This document shows, in pieces, positions 6,723 through 47,640 of a stretch of DNA of 50,528 nucleotides. Both the position numbers and the translations under genes were made by a program. This DNA is from Candidatus Peribacteraceae bacterium. GTDB lineage: Bacteria; Patescibacteriota; Gracilibacteria; Peribacterales; Peribacteraceae. Under the pieces are notes generated by a model. It searched no databases, was not told the DNA's origin, and saw only the letters and a program-made list of their open reading frames with translations. The stretch is taken from assembly GCA_028699155.1 (NCBI GenBank), contig JAQVVD010000007.1, positions 1-50,528 on the forward strand, written 5' to 3'. How positions within the stretch are numbered: position 1 is the stretch's first letter; every line of letters begins with the position of its first letter.

Positions 6723-7775
6723 ATGAAGAAGGACCAGCCCATCCTGCCGGCCTCTACGGAACCCAAAGACTTCACGATCGCGACGATCGGCAGCCACACC
6801 GCGCTGCAGATCCTCAAAGGAGCGCGCGATGAAGGCATGCGGAACCTCGTCATCTGCAAGAAGGGCTCTGAGCGCCCGTACCAGAGCTACGGCGTCGCTG
6901 ATGAGATCCTGACAGTGGACGATTGGTCCGAGTGGAATGAGGAGTTGGAGGAGGAGCTGATCAAGCGCAATGCGATCGTGATTCCGCATGGGTCGTTCAT
7001 CGCGTACATGGGTCATGAGCGCGTGCAGGATATGCGCGCCATGTACTACGGGACCAAGGAGATTCTCCACTGGGAATCCGACCGGACCATGGAGAGGCAG
7101 TGGCTGGAAAAAGCCAATCTCAAACTCCCGCGAGTGTTCGCGAAACCCGAGGACATCGACAAGCCCGTCATTGTGAAGTTCCATGGAGCGGGCGGTGGGT
7201 TCGGTTACTTCGTGGTGAAGACAGCAGAGCAGTTCTACGAGGTGAAGAACCGCAAGTATCCGGACCAGAATGACTTCGTGATCCAGGAGTACATCCTCGG
7301 CGTTCCCCTCTATATCCACTACTTCTACTCGCCGCTCACGAAGGAACTGGAGATCATGAGTTTTGACAAACGCTACGAATCCAACGCGGACTCGATCGGT
7401 CGTATCAAGGCCCAGGACCAGCTGACTGCGAATATCCACACGAGCTACACGATCGTCGGGAACATCCCCGTCGTGGTGCGCGAATCCCTCCTTCCGCAGT
7501 TTTTTGAGATGGGTGAGCGCGTGGTAGAAGTGAGCCAGGATCTCTGTGGCAAAGGCCTCTTCGGGCCGTTCTGCCTGGAGACGATCGTGACGAGGAAGCT
7601 CGAGGTTTTCGTCTTCGAGATCAGCGCGCGCATCGTTGCCGGCACCAATCCGTTCATCGAGGGGTCGCCGTACACGGCACTCAAGTACAAGGAACCGATG
7701 AGCACCGGCCGTCGCCTTGCACGCGACATCAAGCAGGCGATTGAGCAGGGGCGATTGGAGGAAGTGCTCGGATAA
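6723..7775 (+). CDS. purP: PurP-family FAICAR synthetase (formate-dependent AICAR ligase), likely catalytic paralogue
   Basis: Predicted 350-aa ATP-grasp protein of the archaeal PurP family, which makes FAICAR from AICAR, formate and ATP without folate. Supporting segments are an N-terminal Rossmann-like start (FTIATIGSHTALQILKGARDEG), an ATP-grasp core (KPVIVKFHGAGGGFGYFVV, then FVIQEYILGVPLYIHYFYSPL) and a canonical C-terminal motif FEISARIVAGTNPFIEGSPY. Length matches archaeal PurP. A second, more divergent copy follows after a heptad-repeat hairpin. The start codon lies 12 nt after a -10 box, so the leader is very short. No other purine genes are in the window. Exact activity is inferred from family membership. 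Confidence 0.85.
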   Translation: MKKDQPILPASTEPKDFTIATIGSHTALQILKGARDEGMRNLVICKKGSERPYQSYGVADEILTVDDWSEWNEELEEELIKRNAIVIPHGSFIAYMGHERVQDMRAMYYGTKEILHWESDRTMERQWLEKANLKLPRVFAKPEDIDKPVIVKFHGAGGGFGYFVVKTAEQFYEVKNRKYPDQNDFVIQEYILGVPLYIHYFYSPLTKELEIMSFDKRYESNADSIGRIKAQDQLTANIHTSYTIVGNIPVVVRESLLPQFFEMGERVVEVSQDLCGKGLFGPFCLETIVTRKLEVFVFEISARIVAGTNPFIEGSPYTALKYKEPMSTGRRLARDIKQAIEQGRLEEVLG

Positions 7776-7860
7776 TGGAAAATTGAAAATGGAAAATTGG
7801 TCGATTGCTCTTCTATAACTTTCATTTTCCATTTTCCATTCTTCATTTTCCATTTACCAT
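7776..7860 (+). repeat. Heptad-repeat hairpin element ending in a -10-like box, between purP1 and purP2
   Basis: Left arm: repeated TGGAAAA/TTGAAAA units at 7776-7800. Loop: contains TTGCTC. Right arm: repeated TTTTCCAT units at 7822-7856. It ends in TACCAT (7855-7860), 7 nt before the purP2 ATG. The same element in the same orientation lies between the GHMP kinase and decarboxylase genes (45101-45185). It may work as a promoter, or as an RNA hairpin between co-transcribed genes. Confidence 0.75.
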
Positions 7861-7867
7861 TCTGATC

Positions 7868-9016
7868 ATGGATGCCGCCAAACTTCTCAAAGGCTACGAT
7901 CTCGATTCCCTCACCATCGGCGCGCTCGGCGGCCACAGCGGGCTGGATACCGCGCACGGCGCGAACCAGTTCGGTTTCCGTTCCGTGATTGTCGCGCAGA
8001 AAGGGCGGGAGCAACCCTACGAACTCCATCGTATCCGGGAACAGGGAACCGAATACGAGCGCGGGTGCATCAATGAAGTCATCGTGGTTCCGAAATTCCA
8101 GAATATCCTGGATGCAAAGGTGCAGGAGCAGCTGCGGGAACTCAATACCATCTTCGTCCACAACAGGTACTTCTGGGTGTACTTCAGCGATTTCTCCAAA
8201 GTGGAGAATGAGTTCCATGTTCCGATCTTCGGCTCGCGCACGCTGCTCAAGCTCGAGGAGCGTGACCAGCCGTACAACCAGTATCACCTATTGCAAGATG
8301 CAGGCATCAGGACCCCTAAGATCTTCGCGAAGCCGGAAGACATAGATCGTCCCGTGCTGGTGAAAGCGGCGGAAGCGCACCGCGGCTACGAGCGGGCGTT
8401 CTTCGTTGCGGGGGATAAGAAATCATGGGAAGCAGAGGGCGTGCGCCTTGAGAAAGAAGGGAAAGTCACTGCTAAGTGGCGCAGTGCGGCAATCGAAGAG
8501 TTTATCGTCGGCGCACCGGTGAACTTCAACTTCTTCTACTCGCCGCTCACGGGGGAATTGGAATTGCTCGGCACCGATACCCGCCGCCAGACGAATCTGG
8601 ACGGATTCCTCCGCATGACCGCTCCGCAGCAGACGAAAGCGTTGCAGTCGGGTATCGACCTCAAGATGATTGAAACAGGCCACATTGCCTGCACTGTCAA
8701 AGAGTCCATTCTTGTGAAGGCGTACGACCTCGGTCAGAAGTTCGTGGACCAGTGCAAGAAGCTGCCGAAAGCACTCGATCCTTCCGGCAAGGGCATCATC
8801 GGTCCGTTCGCATTGCAGGGGGCCGTGGTTGCAGAGGAGGGGAAGGAGGACATCGTCATCTTCGACGTCTCCCTGCGCATTCCCGGATCACCCGGCATCT
8901 CCGCCACGCCGTACTCCGGGTACCTCTACGGCAATTCCATGAGCGTTGGCGAACGCATTGGGCTGGAACTCAAACGCGCGGTGGAGGAGGAGCGCGTGGA
9001 GGAGGTGGTGACGTAA
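7868..9016 (+). CDS. Second PurP-family ATP-grasp protein, divergent paralogue
   Basis: Predicted 382 aa, clearly related to the upstream protein (shared KIFAKPEDIDRPVLVK, VGAPVNFNFFYSPLTGELELL and KGIIGPFALQ segments). The C-terminal signature differs: FDVSLRIPGSPGISATPY replaces the canonical FEISARIVAGTN pattern. Archaeal genomes often carry extra PurP homologues without proven AICAR-formylating activity. This copy may be a partner subunit or have a different substrate. The ATG at 7868 lies 7 nt after TACCAT of the heptad element, so it could be transcribed separately as well as from purP1. Confidence 0.8.
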   Translation: MDAAKLLKGYDLDSLTIGALGGHSGLDTAHGANQFGFRSVIVAQKGREQPYELHRIREQGTEYERGCINEVIVVPKFQNILDAKVQEQLRELNTIFVHNRYFWVYFSDFSKVENEFHVPIFGSRTLLKLEERDQPYNQYHLLQDAGIRTPKIFAKPEDIDRPVLVKAAEAHRGYERAFFVAGDKKSWEAEGVRLEKEGKVTAKWRSAAIEEFIVGAPVNFNFFYSPLTGELELLGTDTRRQTNLDGFLRMTAPQQTKALQSGIDLKMIETGHIACTVKESILVKAYDLGQKFVDQCKKLPKALDPSGKGIIGPFALQGAVVAEEGKEDIVIFDVSLRIPGSPGISATPYSGYLYGNSMSVGERIGLELKRAVEEERVEEVVT

Positions 9017-15050: not shown

Positions 15051-15147
15051 GTTCCATTGTTAAATGGTTCAATTGCTACAGTGTTCAATTGTTCGCAAGC
15101 GAAACGCAGGTTGACCCCAAGGAATTGCACCAATTTGGCAATGGAAC
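15051..15147 (+). repeat. Heptad-like inverted repeat between rsmI and gyrA
   Basis: GTTCCATTG (15051-15059) pairs with CAATGGAAC (15139-15147). Between them, CAATTG-type units recur at roughly 7-nt steps. It resembles, more loosely, the heptad hairpins at 7776-7860 and 45101-45185. Confidence 0.45.
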
Positions 15148-15258: not shown

Positions 15259-17919
15259 ATGCCTAAGGAGAATGACAAGAATGCGGAGCCTCGCGATGAG
15301 TCTCCGAAGAACGAGGAACAAGCGCCTGCAGCGCAGCCGGCGCAGATGTTCAGTGAAACGCTCGCTGCAATCGGCAGCATCAAACCGCGGCCCATTGTGA
15401 CAGAGATGGAGGAGAGCTATCTGGATTACGCTATGAGTGTCATCGTCTCGCGCGCCCTGCCGGATGCGCGTGACGGCCTCAAGCCCGTACACAGGCGCAT
15501 CCTCTACTCTATGCACGAACTGGGGCTGCGCAGCACCGCAAAATTCCGAAAGTCTGCGCTGGTGGTAGGAGACGTGCTTGGAAAGTACCATCCCCACGGC
15601 GACAGCGCCGTGTACGATGCGCTGGTGCGCATGGCGCAGGATTTCTCCATGCGCTATCCGCTGGTGCGCGGGCAGGGAAACTTCGGCTCGCTGGACGGAG
15701 ACAGCGCCGCAGCAATGCGTTACACAGAGGTGAAGATGGAGCGCATCTGCGATGACATGCTCCAGGATATCGAGAAGAACACGGTGGATTTCGTTTCCAA
15801 CTACGATGATTCGCGCAAGGAGCCTTCCGTGCTCCCCGCCAAGGTTCCCAGCCTGCTTCTCAACGGGACGGTCGGCATTGCCGTGGGCATGGCGACCAAT
15901 ATTCCGCCCCACAATCTGGGGGAGCTGTGCGATGCGATTCTGCACATCATCGAGCAGCCGGATTCCACGGTGGAGGATCTGCTCAAGTACATTAAGGGAC
16001 CGGATTTTCCGACGGGAGGGATCGTGTACGACAAGGAAGTGCTCAAGCAGGCGTACCTCACCGGGCGCGGCAGCGTGGTCGTGCGCGGGGTTGCGGAGAT
16101 TGAGGAAACGAAAGGCGGGCGGTTCCACATCCGTATTTCTGAGATTCCATACCAGGTGAACAAGTCGACGCTCATCGAGCGCATTGCCAAGCTGGTGACG
16201 GACAAGGTGGTGCAGGGCGTCTCTGACGTGCGCGACGAATCCGACCGCGACGGCGTGCGCATCATCATCGAGCTCAAGCGCGAGTCCTACCCGCAGAAGG
16301 TGCTCAATCTGCTCTTCAAGCACACCGATCTCCAGACGTCGTTCGGGTACAACATGATCGCTCTGGCAGACGGGTTGCAGCCTCGGTTGCTCAATTTGGC
16401 CGAGATTCTCCAGATATACCTGAAGCACCGGCGCGAGGTGACGGTTCGGCGTGTCACGTTCGACCGTGACCGCGCCAAAGAGCGCGTGCACATCCTCGAG
16501 GGCTTGAGTATCGCCCTCAATGACATCGATAAAGTCGTGGAAACCATCAAGAAGAGCCCCACGAAGGAGGAGGCGCAGGTCAACCTGGTCAAGAAGTTCA
16601 AGCTCACGGCGATTCAGGCGGATGCCATTCTCCAGATGCGCCTGCAGACGCTCGCGGGTCTCGAGCGCAAGAAGATCGAAGACGAGCTCAAGGAGAAGCG
16701 CGCCTTCATTGCGGAGTGCGAGGCGATCCTCAAGGACAAGAAGCGCGTGGACAAGATCATCGCGCAGGAGCTCACTGCCCTCAAAACGACGTACGGCGAC
16801 AAGCGCCGTACGATGGTCGTGCCGCATGCAGTCGGTCAGTTCAGCGCGAAGGATACCATTCCGAATGCGCCGATGATCGTGGCCCTCACGGATGCCGGCT
16901 ACGTGAAGCGCCTCAGCCCCATGCAGTTCCGTGCGCAGCACCGCGGCGGCAAGGGCATCAAGGGCATGACGACCAAAGATGATGATGAAATCCTGTCCAT
17001 GCTGCACGTGATGAACCATGATGACCTGCTCTTCTTCACCAACACGGGCCGCGTGTTCCAGCTGCCCGTGTACGAGCTGCCGCAGGGCAGCCGCATCGCG
17101 AAAGGGCAGGCGATCGTCAACCTCCTGCAGCTCAAGCCCGAGGAGCAGATTACCGCAATCCTCAAGGCGGACTTGAGCGACAAGAAGTTCCTGTTCCTCG
17201 TCACCAAACACGGCACGGTCAAGCGCACTGGGACCGACCAGTTCGACAATATTCGCAGGTCGGGCCTCATCGCGCAGAAGGTTTCCGAGGGAGACGAGCT
17301 CAAGTGGGTGGTGGCGACGACCGGTGCGAATGAATTGCTTCTCGTGACGCGCAAGGGCAAAGCTATTCGTTTCAGGGAGGAAGACGTGCGTTCCATGGGT
17401 CGTTCTGCGGCTGGTGTTCGCGGCATCCGCCTCGCACAGGGGGATGAAGTAGTGGAGGCGGCGGTCATCACCGATCCCAAGACGAGCAAGCTGCTTGTGG
17501 TCATGGAGAACGGGCTCGGCAAGATGACGCCGGTGGAGCAGTACCGGTTCCAGGGCCGTGGCGGGAGCGGAGTGAAAGCGGCGCAACTCACGGCGAAAAC
17601 CGGCGATATCGTGGGAGGCTGCGTGCTCGCCGATGGCGATGAGGGGGACCTGATCTGCATCAGCAAGCAGGGGCAGACCATCCGCATGCGCCTGAGCGAT
17701 ATTCCTTCGCTCGGACGCGCCACGCAGGGCGTGATCGTGATGCGCCTCAATGCGAAGGACAAGGTGGCGAGTATGAGCGTGATCATGGAGGGGCAGAACG
17801 GTGCGGTGGAAGGGGAGGACGATGCGGAGCAGCAAGAGGGATTCCTGGAGGAGGAGCAAGAACCGGAGCAGGAAAAAGTCGTCCCTGCCAAGAAACCCAG
17901 AGCTGCTGCGAAGAAATGA
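15259..17919 (+). CDS. gyrA: DNA gyrase subunit A
   Basis: Predicted 886 aa. The breakage-reunion domain has the conserved start [34 protein letters not shown] and the catalytic Tyr at about residue 155 (AMRYTEVKM). The C-terminal DNA-wrapping domain contains a GyrA box QHRGGKG (560-566), which differs from the usual Q(R/K)RGG(R/K)G by a His at position 2. This box separates gyrase from topoisomerase IV. An acidic tail and a Lys/Ala-rich end follow. With GyrB (not here) it introduces negative supercoils. The ~45 residues before the conserved core are a low-complexity charged extension. Confidence 0.96.
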
Positions 17920-39456: not shown

Positions 39457-40695
39457 TTACCGTCCGAGTTCGCGGTGCGCTTTCGCGAGCGTATGGCTGG
39501 CTTGTGCAGCCAAGAGTGACACTTCTCCTGCCAGGACGCCTGCGGCGATCGACTGCGCAAGTTGCGTACATGGGCGCAGGGACGTTTTGGGGGAGAGGAG
39601 GAGACCAAGGCACTGCTGCTGCGCAGGCAGGGATGTTCCTCCGCCGCGCACGCCGACCATGAGCGCTGGCAGCCGTACGCTGATTCTCAATCCTCCTTCG
39701 CACTGTTTCACTGTCGTATCGGCCAGTGATCCTTCTACCACGTGCGCGGCATCCTGTCCTGTCGCCAGGAAGAGCGCTGCAACGATATTTGCGGCATGCA
39801 GATTCTTGCCGAGTGCCCCCGCAACGTTCGAGCCGATTTCCAGTTTCGCATGTGCCACTTCCAGCATCGTTTCCAGGGAAGATTTGAGCACGGTTTCAAT
39901 CACTTCTCCCGAGAGCACGGCTTCTGCGGTTCCTTCGTACCCGCGCCCCTGGTCATGCGTGCGCTTGCTCGGTTTCTTATCACTATCCACATTGCCTGCA
40001 ACGGTGATGAAGGCAACATCCTTGTAATTCTCGCTTACCCATACGCCGATTGCCTGCGCGGCGATGGTCACCATGTTCATGCCCATAGCTTCATCCGTGT
40101 CGCAGTAGATCGTGAGGAAGACGTGGTTCCCCTCGCTCTCGATTGTGTGTGAGAGGAGTTGCAGATGGGTGCTCGTCGCGATTCCAATATCGCTCCATTC
40201 AGATTCTTTTTGGCTTAGGAAAGCAATGAACGATTGTACACCCGACTTCGCTCCGGTTCCCGGAGCTTCGCCGGGAGAGCCTTCAAGGATGCGGAATGCG
40301 ATGGAGCGCGATGTACCATGGTGTACGGATGTGAGCGTCACGCCTCCTGTCTGGGAGAGCGCTTTGCATCCGCGGTTCACGCTCGCGACGAGTGCGCCTT
40401 CCGTCGTTGCGAGCGGCAGGTGCAGATCTGCCTTTTCTCCTGAGCTGAATGTGACACGCAGAGGGCCGGCGTAACCCACCGGCACCGGTACCGCGCCGAA
40501 CATCTGTTCGCAGTTCTTCTCATCCGCATGGCCTATCTGCTCTGCGGTGAGAGCGGTGTGCTTCAGGTCCACGTGCAGTTCTTCCTCCATACGTTGCCTC
40601 CGCACGTTGCAGCGGTCGGAAGGCGAGAGGCCGTCGGGGAGGGTGCGCAGGTCCACGGGAAACGGGAAACGGGGAAAGCAAGAATGCGTACGCAT
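39457..40695 (-). CDS. Hydroxymethylglutaryl-CoA reductase, class I-like
   Basis: Predicted 412 aa. ENC-like segment DEKNCEQMFGAVPVPVGYAGPL, TTEGALVASVNRGCKAL (catalytic Glu), DEAMGMNMVTIAA (Asp and dinucleotide part), and GVRGGGTSLPAQQQCLGL near the C-terminus; the final catalytic His is in LAKAHREL. The class I layout with a short N-terminus fits the archaeal soluble form, using NAD(P)H to make mevalonate. The ATG at 40695 has AAAGGAGG 7 nt upstream; an in-frame ATG at 40725 is the alternative. First gene of the operon with HMG-CoA synthase, thiolase and the DUF35/kinase fusion. Confidence 0.94.
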   Translation of the reverse strand: MRTHSCFPRFPFPVDLRTLPDGLSPSDRCNVRRQRMEEELHVDLKHTALTAEQIGHADEKNCEQMFGAVPVPVGYAGPLRVTFSSGEKADLHLPLATTEGALVASVNRGCKALSQTGGVTLTSVHHGTSRSIAFRILEGSPGEAPGTGAKSGVQSFIAFLSQKESEWSDIGIATSTHLQLLSHTIESEGNHVFLTIYCDTDEAMGMNMVTIAAQAIGVWVSENYKDVAFITVAGNVDSDKKPSKRTHDQGRGYEGTAEAVLSGEVIETVLKSSLETMLEVAHAKLEIGSNVAGALGKNLHAANIVAALFLATGQDAAHVVEGSLADTTVKQCEGGLRISVRLPALMVGVRGGGTSLPAQQQCLGLLLSPKTSLRPCTQLAQSIAAGVLAGEVSLLAAQASHTLAKAHRELGR

Positions 40696-44089: not shown

Positions 44090-45091
44090 TTATTTCCCCC
44101 TCGCCCCCGGCCCGACCTGCGATTCAAAAATCGTACATCCTTTCTGTGCACTGGCGAATGCCCGCACTTCCTCCGTTGCTTCATCCGTACACACGAGGTG
44201 GACGGTCGGTCCCGCGTCCATTGTGAAGAGGACAGGCAAGTGCTTCGTCTCTCGCAATGCCTTCACTTCTCCCACGATGCGGTGCGTTTCCTGTGAAAGA
44301 TACTTGAGCGGGGGATTGCTCGTTTCCATTACATGATGCATGTCGAGGGCATCTTCTTCCGATACGCGCTGCAGTTTCTCAAAATCTTTCTCCAGTATCG
44401 AGTCGATGCATTCCTGCTGCCTGCGTGTCCGAATTGCTTGGATGCGCGCGGCGAAGTATGGGCTGGTTGCCGCCAGCGCATGCCCTTCTGTGGAGCCGAC
44501 TTTCTTCTCCTCCCGACTGGGGATTACCACGATATCGTGGAGGAGCCAGTGGTTTTCGTCGGCGATTTGCACGGCTTTCGCCGCATCAATAGATGCGCCT
44601 TCTCCCGCTTCCAGCGCCACGAACCCGCCCATCACGCTCCGTGCTGCGGAGCCGGAGCCAAGGCGGGCAATGATGCTTACCTGCTCATCTGTGAGTTCCT
44701 TTTTCTCTGTGATCAGTGCGGCAATCGCGCGTGCCAGGCAGCTGAAGACCGCGGCCGATGATGCGAGTCCTACGGCCGGCGGAATGTGCGAATCAATGCG
44801 AATGGAGAGTTCCCCGGGGAGCGCATCGTCTATGCCGAGCGTTCCGAGGTATTCCTTTGCAAGGTCGATGACCTTCTGGAAACGGTCGAGGTGTTTCCCT
44901 GTTACCTCCCGATCTTCCCCCATGGTGGACGACTGTATTTTCAGTGTATCTGCATGATCGATCGTGATCTCCACGCTCGGTTCACTGAGCGTCATGGAGA
45001 GCGAATCCGCCATCGGAAGCCGCAGGGGATTATTCCGATTGCCCCAGTATTTTATGAAGGCGATGTTGGGAGTGGAGATTGCGGTAGCCAT
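44090..45091 (-). CDS. Mevalonate diphosphate decarboxylase family protein (substrate mono- or diphosphate uncertain)
   Basis: Predicted 333 aa GHMP-fold decarboxylase. STPNIAFIKYWGNRNNPLRLP, PPAVGLASSAAVFSCLARA (ATP loop), GSGSAARSVMGGFVAL (conserved Arg) and FTMDAGPTVHLVC (catalytic Asp) are present, so it should be active. In characterised diphosphomevalonate decarboxylases the first motif reads YWGK, with Lys contacting the diphosphate (Lys21 in S. epidermidis); here it is YWGN. This leaves open that it acts on mevalonate 5-phosphate. The ATG lies 9 nt after TACCAT of the heptad element. Follows the GHMP kinase gene. Confidence 0.9.
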   Translation of the reverse strand: MATAISTPNIAFIKYWGNRNNPLRLPMADSLSMTLSEPSVEITIDHADTLKIQSSTMGEDREVTGKHLDRFQKVIDLAKEYLGTLGIDDALPGELSIRIDSHIPPAVGLASSAAVFSCLARAIAALITEKKELTDEQVSIIARLGSGSAARSVMGGFVALEAGEGASIDAAKAVQIADENHWLLHDIVVIPSREEKKVGSTEGHALAATSPYFAARIQAIRTRRQQECIDSILEKDFEKLQRVSEEDALDMHHVMETSNPPLKYLSQETHRIVGEVKALRETKHLPVLFTMDAGPTVHLVCTDEATEEVRAFASAQKGCTIFESQVGPGARGK

Positions 45092-45100
45092 AGGTATTCA

Positions 45101-45185
45101 ATGGTAAATGGTAAATGGAAAATTGAAAATTACAGTTGAGCAACGATGCGCCAACCATTTTCCATTTTCCATTTTTCATTTTTCC
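45101..45185 (-). repeat. Heptad-repeat hairpin between GHMP kinase and decarboxylase, ending in a -10-like box
   Basis: Read on the minus strand: GGAAAAT/GAAAAAT units (45185-45155), a loop with TTGCTC, then TTTTCAAT/TTTCCAT/TTACCAT units ending in TACCAT (45106-45101), 9 nt before the decarboxylase ATG. Same parts and orientation as 7776-7860. The left arm lies inside the kinase gene and encodes its last ~15 residues. Confidence 0.75.
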
Positions 45186-45975
45186 CAACATCGTTGTTTC
45201 CGATGGCTAGTACTATTCCGCCTCCGCCGGTCCTGGCTCCGGCTCCCAGGACTTTCCCCGCGCCTCCGGCGCGTTCAATCTCTGCGATGAATTTCCGTAC
45301 CCCCTCCGGCACGACGCCGAGTGCAACCTGTGCGCGATGGTGGTCGCGCAGGACGCTTTGCAGGTTCTCACCTGTTGCCAGGCGCTCCGTACACTCTCCG
45401 ATTGTTTTCAGATGTGGCATCAATTCCTGCTCCCGCTCCTTCACCCAGGCGATGAGTTCCGGCGTGGTTTCGTTCGGCGTGCCGGTATCGATGAGCAGCG
45501 CTCCTTGTAGGAGGGATGCAGGCAATGAGATCGGTTGCACAGTCTCTCCTTTTTGGAAGAGGACGGGTTTCCCTTCCCAAATCACAGCGAAATCCAGTCC
45601 GCTGTGACCGGGGTTCACCGCATCTTCCACTGTCAGCGCCTGTGTGCGGCAGTCCTGCCCCAGGAACGCGCGTGTCACCCCGATGACGAGTGCGGTGGAT
45701 GAGCCCATGCCTTTCCCCAGCGGGATTTGGTTCACAATGGAGATTTTCCCTTTTTGCGCACCCAATTCTCCGCAACGTTCGACAATCGTGCCAAGGTATT
45801 CCAGCCACTCCTGCGGTGCATCTTCCCAGCGCAATTCTATGTTTTTCTGCTGCGACGGTTCAAAAATAGCCTGTATGCCGATGGGGGCGGGCATGGCGAT
45901 GCCCGGATAGCCGAATACCACAGCGTACTCGCCAGAGAGGATGATTTTGCCGGAGGCGGTGGCGCGCTGTTTCAT
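45130..45975 (-). CDS. GHMP-family mevalonate kinase (or phosphomevalonate kinase)
   Basis: Predicted 281 aa from an ATG at 45975, where the conserved start ATASGKIILSGEYAVVFGYPGIAMPAP begins. The ATP loop is PLGKGMGSSTA (85-95); NPGHSGLDFAVIWEG holds the catalytic-type Asp; the C-terminal Gly motif is VLGAGARTGGGGIVLAI. Most mevalonate kinases have GEHAVV; the GEYAVV here is more usual in phosphomevalonate kinases, although the rest looks like mevalonate kinase. The end (about residue 266 on: NEKWKMENGW...) is encoded by the heptad repeat. TTACCG-N17-TAAGCT on the minus strand just upstream predicts a leaderless message. Confidence 0.85.
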   Translation of the reverse strand: MKQRATASGKIILSGEYAVVFGYPGIAMPAPIGIQAIFEPSQQKNIELRWEDAPQEWLEYLGTIVERCGELGAQKGKISIVNQIPLGKGMGSSTALVIGVTRAFLGQDCRTQALTVEDAVNPGHSGLDFAVIWEGKPVLFQKGETVQPISLPASLLQGALLIDTGTPNETTPELIAWVKEREQELMPHLKTIGECTERLATGENLQSVLRDHHRAQVALGVVPEGVRKFIAEIERAGGAGKVLGAGARTGGGGIVLAIGNNDVGKNEKWKMENGWRIVAQL

Positions 45976-45986
45976 GCGCAAGTAGC

Positions 45987-46015
45987 TTACATGTTCTTCC
46001 CCCTTGCGGTAATCT
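45987..46015 (+). promoter_or_regulatory. Promoter of the prenyl diphosphate synthase, overlapping the divergent kinase promoter
   Basis: TTACAT (45987-45992), 17-nt spacer, TAATCT (46010-46015), then a GTG start at 46022 after 6 nt. On the other strand TAAGCT (45989-45984) serves the kinase gene 8 nt before its ATG. The two promoters share the same ~30 bp, so polymerases should compete. Confidence 0.65.
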
Positions 46016-46021
46016 TCCTCC

Positions 46022-46828
46022 GTGGGTAAAAGTGCTTCATTTTCCGCATTTGCCGGGCGTACACGGCCTCTCATTGAGTCTGCTCTCGACCGGTATACGA
46101 ATGAGGCGATACAAGGGTGCGCTCCCGGCATTCAGGAAGCGATGCGCTACAGCCTGCTCAACCCCGGCAAGCGCATCCGGCCGCTCCTCACGCTCCTAGC
46201 TGCGGATGCCTGTGGCGGCGATGCAGAGCGCGCACTCCCCGTGGCATGTGCTGTGGAGATGGTGCACGTTTTCTCCCTGATTCATGATGATCTTCCGGCG
46301 ATGGATGATGATGACCTGCGCCGAGGCAAACCGACCAATCACAAGGTGTATGGAGAGGGAGAGGCCATTCTTGCTGGTGATGCGCTGCTCACGCTGGCTT
46401 TCCAGATTCTTGCGGACGATATCCGGCCGCCCCAGGCGGCTGCGCGCTGCGCGAGCGTTCTTGCCCGCGCAATCGGTGCGTGCGGCATGCAGGGCGGCCA
46501 GTGGGATGACATTCGCGGCCTCTCGGATACGCTCTCGGTCGCCGGCCGCAAGACAGCCGCGCTCATCGAGGCATCCTGCCATCTTGGCGCCATCACGGCG
46601 GAAGCTTCTCCCGAAGAGATCACTGCTCTGCAGGCGTATGGCTGGAGAGTTGGTCTGGCATTCCAGCTCATCGATGATTCCCTCGATGAGGCGGCGAATG
46701 ATTGTGATACATTAAAAACCCAGGCTCGTTTGTTGACCGATGAGGCGGTTCAAAATATTTCATCCTTCGGCACAAAAGCATCGGTGCTCATTGAGCTTGC
46801 AGAGCAGCTCACGAAGCGTGATCGCTAA
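46022..46828 (+). CDS. Polyprenyl (farnesyl/geranylgeranyl) diphosphate synthase
   Basis: Predicted 268 aa. First Asp-rich motif in HDDLPAMDDDDLRRGKPTNHKVYGE, GDALLTLAFQIL, second motif FQLIDDSLDEAAND. Residues before the first motif (VEMVHVFSLIHDD) resemble IspA-type C15/C20 synthases. It joins IPP to allylic diphosphates and would supply the primer for UPP synthase next door. The start is GTG at 46022, decided by the -10 box 6 nt upstream. Convergent with uppS by 2 nt. Confidence 0.92.
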   Translation: MGKSASFSAFAGRTRPLIESALDRYTNEAIQGCAPGIQEAMRYSLLNPGKRIRPLLTLLAADACGGDAERALPVACAVEMVHVFSLIHDDLPAMDDDDLRRGKPTNHKVYGEGEAILAGDALLTLAFQILADDIRPPQAAARCASVLARAIGACGMQGGQWDDIRGLSDTLSVAGRKTAALIEASCHLGAITAEASPEEITALQAYGWRVGLAFQLIDDSLDEAANDCDTLKTQARLLTDEAVQNISSFGTKASVLIELAEQLTKRDR

Positions 46829-47540: not shown

Positions 47541-47640
47541 CGTTGTGAAATTGTCAAAATGTTAAATTGCTAGATTGTTTCTACCTGTATAAAGCTGGTT
47601 TCGTGAGGAGAATAGCAATTCAGTAATATGGCAATTTCGC
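47541..47640 (-). repeat. Loose heptad-like inverted repeat between idi and uppS
   Basis: AAATTG-type units repeat at 7-nt steps near 47548-47580 and complementary CAATTT/GCAATT units near 47610-47640. It lies between the idi stop and the uppS start in the same orientation as the two clear heptad elements, but less regular and farther from the start codon. Confidence 0.4.

Follow-up and report, generated by a model that had tools for sequence, protein, structure and literature searches.

Short-period inverted repeat arrays, built from tandem units of 7 and sometimes 8 or 9 nt, are scattered through the genome of a small uncultured bacterium (a Peribacteria MAG), in which about two dozen arrays of 7-nt units were found among the matches listed. 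One copy, element 1, occupies positions 7770 to 7863 of the window (the whole 50,528-nt stretch of DNA analyzed here); in it, a (GGAAAAT)n array is followed, after an 18-nt loop, by an (ATTTTCC)n array. In our judgment, such arrays probably arise by a mutational process that generates repeats, are tolerated wherever there is room for extra DNA, and are sometimes exapted as a -10 box. The sites at which they are found are sites where extra DNA is tolerated, from a stop codon up to a -10 box and, in frame, at variable positions in proteins.

Two purP genes lie side by side in the window (positions 6723 to 9016), and element 1 fills the gap between them. A reading made from the sequence alone (the sequence-only reading) had described a heptad-repeat hairpin here, with a TACCAT hexamer 7 nt ahead of the purP2 ATG, and both descriptions held: the two arms are tandem 7-nt units in inverted orientation, and the hexamer lies where it was said to lie. 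The features of the locus are as follows.

6723 to 7775, plus strand: purP1 (PF06849 and PF06973), the upstream gene, with its stop within the 5' arm.
7770 to 7801, plus strand: 5' arm of element 1, purine/G-rich, GGAAAAT-type units, overlapping the purP1 stop.
7802 to 7819, plus strand: loop of element 1, containing TTGCTC and unlike other loops except that of element 2.
7820 to 7863, plus strand: 3' arm of element 1, pyrimidine-rich, ATTTTCC-type units.
7855 to 7860, plus strand: TACCAT, a -10-like hexamer 7 nt before the ATG at 7868; TACACT or TACAAT in relatives.
7868 to 9016, plus strand: purP2 (PF06849 and PF06973), the downstream gene, probably leaderless.

The first arm takes in the purP1 stop codon (TAA, positions 7773 to 7775), and the second ends 4 nt short of the purP2 ATG. 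TACCAT itself arises from a variant unit, ATTTACC. A TTTTCC 17 nt upstream of the hexamer is indeed present, but because the 7-nt period puts copies at 3, 10, and 17 nt, its spacing simply follows from the repeat, and we rejected its reading as a -35 box. The predicted RNA fold of the element was below that of shuffled sequences (z of -3.8 on both strands). The listed relatives of purP2 outside the Peribacteria/Peregrinibacteria were mostly from Woesearchaeota and Nanoarchaeota. Elsewhere in the window, a 16-nt tandem repeat (2.7 copies, positions 15051 to 15093) lies about 170 nt before the start of a gyrA-like open reading frame (ORF) at 15259.

A second copy in the window, at first placed at 45101 to 45185, does share the plan of element 1, on the minus strand and with TACCAT 9 nt before an ATG; its neighbor, however, is not purP. 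This element 2 (positions 45100 to 45184, minus strand) lies between an ORF of the GHMP-kinase family and the gene for mevalonate-diphosphate decarboxylase, an enzyme of the mevalonate pathway.

45130 to 46131, minus strand: GHMP-kinase family ORF (PF00288), upstream of element 2, with its last codons inside the element.
45153 to 45184, minus strand: 5' arm of element 2, purine-rich on the minus strand, within the 3' end of the GHMP-kinase ORF.
45132 to 45152, minus strand: loop of element 2.
45100 to 45131, minus strand: 3' arm of element 2, pyrimidine-rich on the minus strand.
45101 to 45106, minus strand: TACCAT, the -10-like hexamer of element 2, 9 nt before the ATG at 45091.
44090 to 45091, minus strand: mevalonate-diphosphate decarboxylase (PF22700, PF18376), downstream of element 2.

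Since the second copy adjoins mevalonate-pathway genes, we rejected the idea of a regulatory element specific to purP. Like element 1, element 2 folds below shuffles (z of -4.1 and -4.5 on the two strands). The TTGCTC of the loop is present in both elements but in only 2 of the 20 paired elements of the genome; it is therefore probably a coincidence, and it was dropped as a common loop motif. Other 7- and 8-nt arrays, among them units like ACGGGAA and AATTGT, are located at positions 40655 to 40676 and 47543 to 47577 of the window.

Collecting all copies, as the sequence-only reading had proposed, was done for the genome itself, and relatives were scanned as well. A 19-nt array consensus gave 29 matches with one mismatch in the genome, versus 0 for the reversed pattern, and 105 matches with up to three mismatches, versus 3 for the reversed pattern. 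From a unit-scoring scan of the neighborhoods around about 100 of these 105 matches, 27 arrays of the ATTTTCC family were kept (among the matches listed), comprising 20 inverted pairs and 7 single arms. Weaker or odd arrays at L012 (2253), L015, L017 (4609), and L018 (4512) were left out, and those at L020 (458, 3800), L022 (4337), L024, and L027 (1535) are also outside this set. The loops of the 20 pairs range from 0 to 109 nt and were unrelated on inspection. The genome also holds 7- and 8-nt arrays of other units, including inverted pairs at L115:15359-15447 (among units like TAGTGGT and GGCTGGATA) and at L123:2558-2663. An order-2 Markov control yielded zero arrays.

The placement of these copies bears directly on the proposal, made in the sequence-only reading, that the element is a portable promoter, one that supplies a leaderless start with its -10 box at any site of insertion and sits at a fixed distance upstream of starts. 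Gaps hold 22 of the 27 kept arrays. With the first gene calls, 15 were in co-directional, 5 in divergent, and 2 in convergent gaps and 5 were inside genes; with a retrained caller, these numbers became 17, 4, 1, and 5 (gene calls came from a simple custom caller, the versions of which disagree on elements E4 and E5). The start-side distances of the pairs vary from -8 to 957 nt (n = 22), whereas on the stop side all 14 of 14 lie at +1 nt or less, including a value of -41 that belongs to E5, whose adjoining short ORF is doubtful. Three single arms sit away from stops, at 32, 38, and 408 nt. Paired elements are thus bound to stops more than to starts. When pairs of all unit families were counted in gaps of at least 20 nt (40 stretches from relatives plus a sample of the genome itself), they occupied 16 of the 383 co-directional gaps, 11 of the 135 divergent ones, and 10 of the 89 convergent ones, and a further 5 lay in coding sequence or at edges. 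It is therefore the promoterless convergent gaps that are richest in pairs. Together with the stop-bound pairs, these counts fit a terminator or a filler and speak against a promoter.

A bidirectional transcription terminator or a stem at the mRNA 3' end, that is, a purine-first RNA hairpin with its U/C-rich arm just past the stop, would account for the stop-side distances, for the excess in convergent gaps, for the folds below shuffles, and for the 91 of 104 pairs that are purine-first. That the pairs keep close to stop codons and are in excess in convergent gaps also agrees with such a role, which counts against the mutational process. Nevertheless, divergent gaps, which have no 3' end, carry pairs too, arrays run in frame within genes, and several orthologous gaps are without any array. 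An intrinsic terminator has a G+C-rich stem followed by a U-run; element 1, by reading, has an A+T-rich stem and a T-rich 3' arm with no separate T-run (U-tract in the RNA) after it. We regard this explanation as unlikely.

The polarity of the pairs is strong. In all 20 of the genome's own ATTTTCC-family pairs, the purine arm (GGAAAAT) comes first, and among 104 pairs of all families (which, for polarity, are not independent of unit family), 92 were G-first and 8 were C-first, with 4 ties; by set, the genome itself, in which one unit is dominant, gave 26 of 26 G-first, and the named relatives gave 12 G-first versus 4 C-first. The difference from ordinary inverted repeats is not firmly established, however. 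Strong nonperiodic inverted repeats, used as a control, were 14 G-first and 5 C-first with 1 tie, which may mean that a weaker G-first bias is general. A second control, with nonperiodic 11-mer stems, gave 31 G-first versus 28 C-first and was spoiled by 949 ties, mostly probably N runs. The mutational process that we favor leaves the G-first polarity unexplained.

The genome does appear to use -10 boxes close to its start codons. In a 354-kb sample, a TANNNT peak was found 6 to 10 nt before the ATG in 62 of 172 ATG genes with a gap of at least 15 nt, compared with about 3 at each position elsewhere; the same sample showed no Shine-Dalgarno peak. In relatives, purP2 is repeatedly preceded by TACACT, TACAAT, or TATAAT, about 7 nt ahead of the ATG, both with arrays (L031, L051, L056) and without them (L060, L069); the box, therefore, does not come with the element. 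On the other hand, ATTTACC, the unit that makes TACCAT, accounts for 6 of 18 outer units of start-touching arms but only 3 of 173 other units (Fisher p 2e-5), or 2 of 65 when only other outer units are considered (p 0.001), and TANNNT was found 5 to 12 nt upstream in 8 of 11 start-touching arms compared with 89 of the 237 sampled starts (p 0.02); the tests on start-touching arms were chosen post hoc. This enrichment is what a portable promoter has in its favor, and it agrees with a leaderless start whose -10 box is supplied by the last unit. In that respect, the proposed terminal -10 box is partly upheld, with the reservation that the box is genome-wide and is present without arrays too. The wider proposal did not survive the test that the sequence-only reading had itself set: copies sit in convergent gaps and inside genes, their distance to starts varies, arms away from starts are mostly without the TACCAT-making unit, and orthologous gaps lacking arrays have the box nonetheless. 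We consider a portable promoter very improbable, the least probable of the explanations weighed here. What we propose instead of a promoter travelling with the element is exaptation of the array, which is plausible for the start-touching copies: at a gene start, selection would keep or re-create a -10-like hexamer (TACCAT) in the last unit of the array.

Orthologous sites in relatives show how the arrays differ between genomes. Among the named relatives, the best were Peribacteria. The comparison covered 80 loci related to purP2, from which L099, L101, L103, L105, and L108 were left out and of which 24, archaeal ones, served only as a control for period and pairs; no period-7 arrays were found in these 24. 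A purP1 stop was recognized in 29 of 45 loci, the window counted in, and 16 of the 45 were without a recognized stop. The purP1-purP2 gap is 2 to 27 nt and contains no array in L037, L040, L045, L060, and L069, while many of the longer gaps carry other units, with a period of 8 in L047, of 9 in L057 and L058, and of 7 in L051 and L054; the gaps of intermediate length in L032 and L033 contained no clear array. Both the sequence of the unit and the presence of an array thus turn over between genomes at orthologous sites. In 475 kb of unselected stretches from relatives, runs with a period of 7 numbered 24, those with a period of 9 numbered 21 (a count possibly inflated by codon-periodic repeats in genes), and those with a period of 8 numbered 9, with 0 runs each for periods 5, 10, and 11. 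The ATTTTCC array pattern was matched in 36 of 74 genomes of the family versus 15 of 286 across the phylum, the genome under study being included in both. In one relative, a 14-kb stretch (L134:2465-16044) holds more than 12 7-nt arrays of different units, many of them within genes called on one strand, where the purine-rich strand is the coding one.

Arrays within coding sequence are what chiefly leads us to prefer a copying process to a regulatory element. In the genome itself, in-frame arrays were found in genes for ValS, WecB, FemX-like, and O-antigen-ligase-like proteins (names read from translations), and alignments with 19 homologs each, made for these proteins except WecB, place the array peptides at variable sites. 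The FemX-like gene has two such sites, the segment between which measures 63 nt in all but one (69 nt) of the 19 parsed genomes. Complementarity between site 1 and site 2 was higher within genomes than between them (means of 10.0 and 5.8; permutation p 5e-5), and the same was true of the ligase-like gene (10.6 and 7.0; p 0.002; 13 of 20 loci parsed), with one FemX-like and seven ligase-like loci off the pattern. In the latter gene, the lengths of the two sites are negatively correlated (rho -0.65), one locus (L202) has unlike units at its two sites, and several loci are one-armed. Arms therefore tend to match their partners, whether from the outset or through retention, although the spacer is ordinary coding sequence. 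We also considered arm-to-arm correction within the intergenic pairs of the genome and rejected it: arm likeness was 19.5 within elements versus 19.2 between them (p 0.35), so that support for a copying step comes only from the two coding loci. In several relatives (L033, L035, L040, L049, L056, L059, L066, L070), in-frame 7-nt arrays with differing units sit in the purP2 loop after KYFKTR (approximately nt 166 to 207). The purP2 loop of L071 contains, at a similarly permissive site, the peptide SLSNH...RQAQGD, and in L027 the site between the arms of E25, permissive in a similar way, contains DNA like TTCGACAGAGCTCACC; we take this DNA and peptide to be a separate, widespread palindromic repeat.

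As the origin of the arrays, we infer slippage combined with template switching. Slippage would multiply one unit in tandem; a complementary array would then be written within a distance of about 100 nt, probably through fold-back template switching, and the native DNA between the two arrays would be left as the loop. That many loci in one genome have nearly the same unit is left unexplained by local slippage and suggests copying between loci as well. Another explanation that we weighed is a mobile repeat, palindromic in form, that a Y1 (REP-associated) transposase would move. Y1_Tnp was matched in 53 of the 74 family genomes, including a single weak match in the genome itself, and ATTTTCC arrays occur in 30 of the 53 genomes with Y1_Tnp versus 6 of the 21 without (Fisher p 0.04). 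This association is weak, and the six array-bearing genomes that have no Y1_Tnp match at E 0.001 led us to reject the transposase as a requirement. Moreover, loops differ from copy to copy, arrays are known with many unrelated units, and no conserved palindrome and loop of the REP/RAYT type, common to copies, was found among the 20 pairs (loops by inspection). We think it quite improbable that the arrays are moved in this way.

Heptad repeats had been said to exist in other bacteria, and the nearest known case is that of Xanthomonas and Nostoc, in which arrays of GGGAATC or GGGGA(C/T)T heptamers are described as mostly intergenic, with many close inverted pairs in "convergent orientation"; the G-rich strand follows just after stops or, as the other strand, precedes starts, and the arrays overlap stops and differ in length and sequence between relatives (PMC4692102). 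The arrays reported here resemble that layout in their tandem 7-nt units, their mostly intergenic location (22 of 27 kept), and their inverted pairs with the G-rich arm first (92 of 104) and the G-rich strand after stops. They differ from it in the unit, the periods, the replacement, and the arms flanking coding sequence: the units in Peribacteria are many, the main one, GGAAAAT, having G-runs of two only and none of the G-runs of at least three that form quadruplexes; periods of 8 and 9 occur too; a given site can carry different units in different genomes; coding segments are enclosed by paired arms, and start-touching arms have a -10-like unit; and divergent gaps were not depleted by our counts.

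Other systems share single traits. In the P6b region of the Nostoc trnL intron, complementary 7-nt repeats form a stem-loop whose unit class is likewise replaced, but at a single site within a group I intron and not in dispersed gaps and genes (PMC4476775). The TAACTGA arrays of Beggiatoaceae also have 7-nt units and often lie a few nucleotides before start codons; however, they are direct repeats of one unit with inverted pairs almost absent (PMC4679880). Heptanucleotides were the top class of long simple sequence repeats in most prokaryotic genomes, for which polymerase slippage was proposed (Mrazek and others 2007, via PMC4679880), though inverted pairing is not in the description given by PMC4679880. 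The tandem repeats of Borgs are similarly fast-evolving arrays in gaps and proteins but are direct repeats on archaeal extrachromosomal elements (PMC9879509). Leaderless starts next to a -10 box are themselves already in the literature: a TANNNT box located about 12 nt upstream of leaderless genes has been reported, the box adjoining the ORF as in this genome, and the relevant passages of those accounts draw no tie to repeat arrays (PMC3160421, PMC12340547). Among the open-licence papers listed, we found no account of heptamer inverted arrays in Patescibacteria/Peregrinibacteria, nor of leaderless promoters in Patescibacteria.

Counts of heptamer arrays in bacteria go back years, and the questions at stake are why the period is 7 nt, why the arrays form inverted pairs, and why these have a single polarity. 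With many orthologous sites at which arrays are present in some genomes and absent in others, the birth and replacement of arrays can be followed in this group. That the same layout occurs with G-runs too short to form quadruplexes speaks against explaining the polarity by such structures. We tentatively suggest, as a possibility that we do not rate highly, that Peribacteria engage in ongoing writing of complementary G-first array pairs flanking native DNA, including in-frame segments of core proteins, with units replaced between lineages and with arrays that reach a start made into the -10 box of a leaderless gene. The last of these would point to a possible route from repeat to promoter box, in which an array may be drafted as a -10 element.
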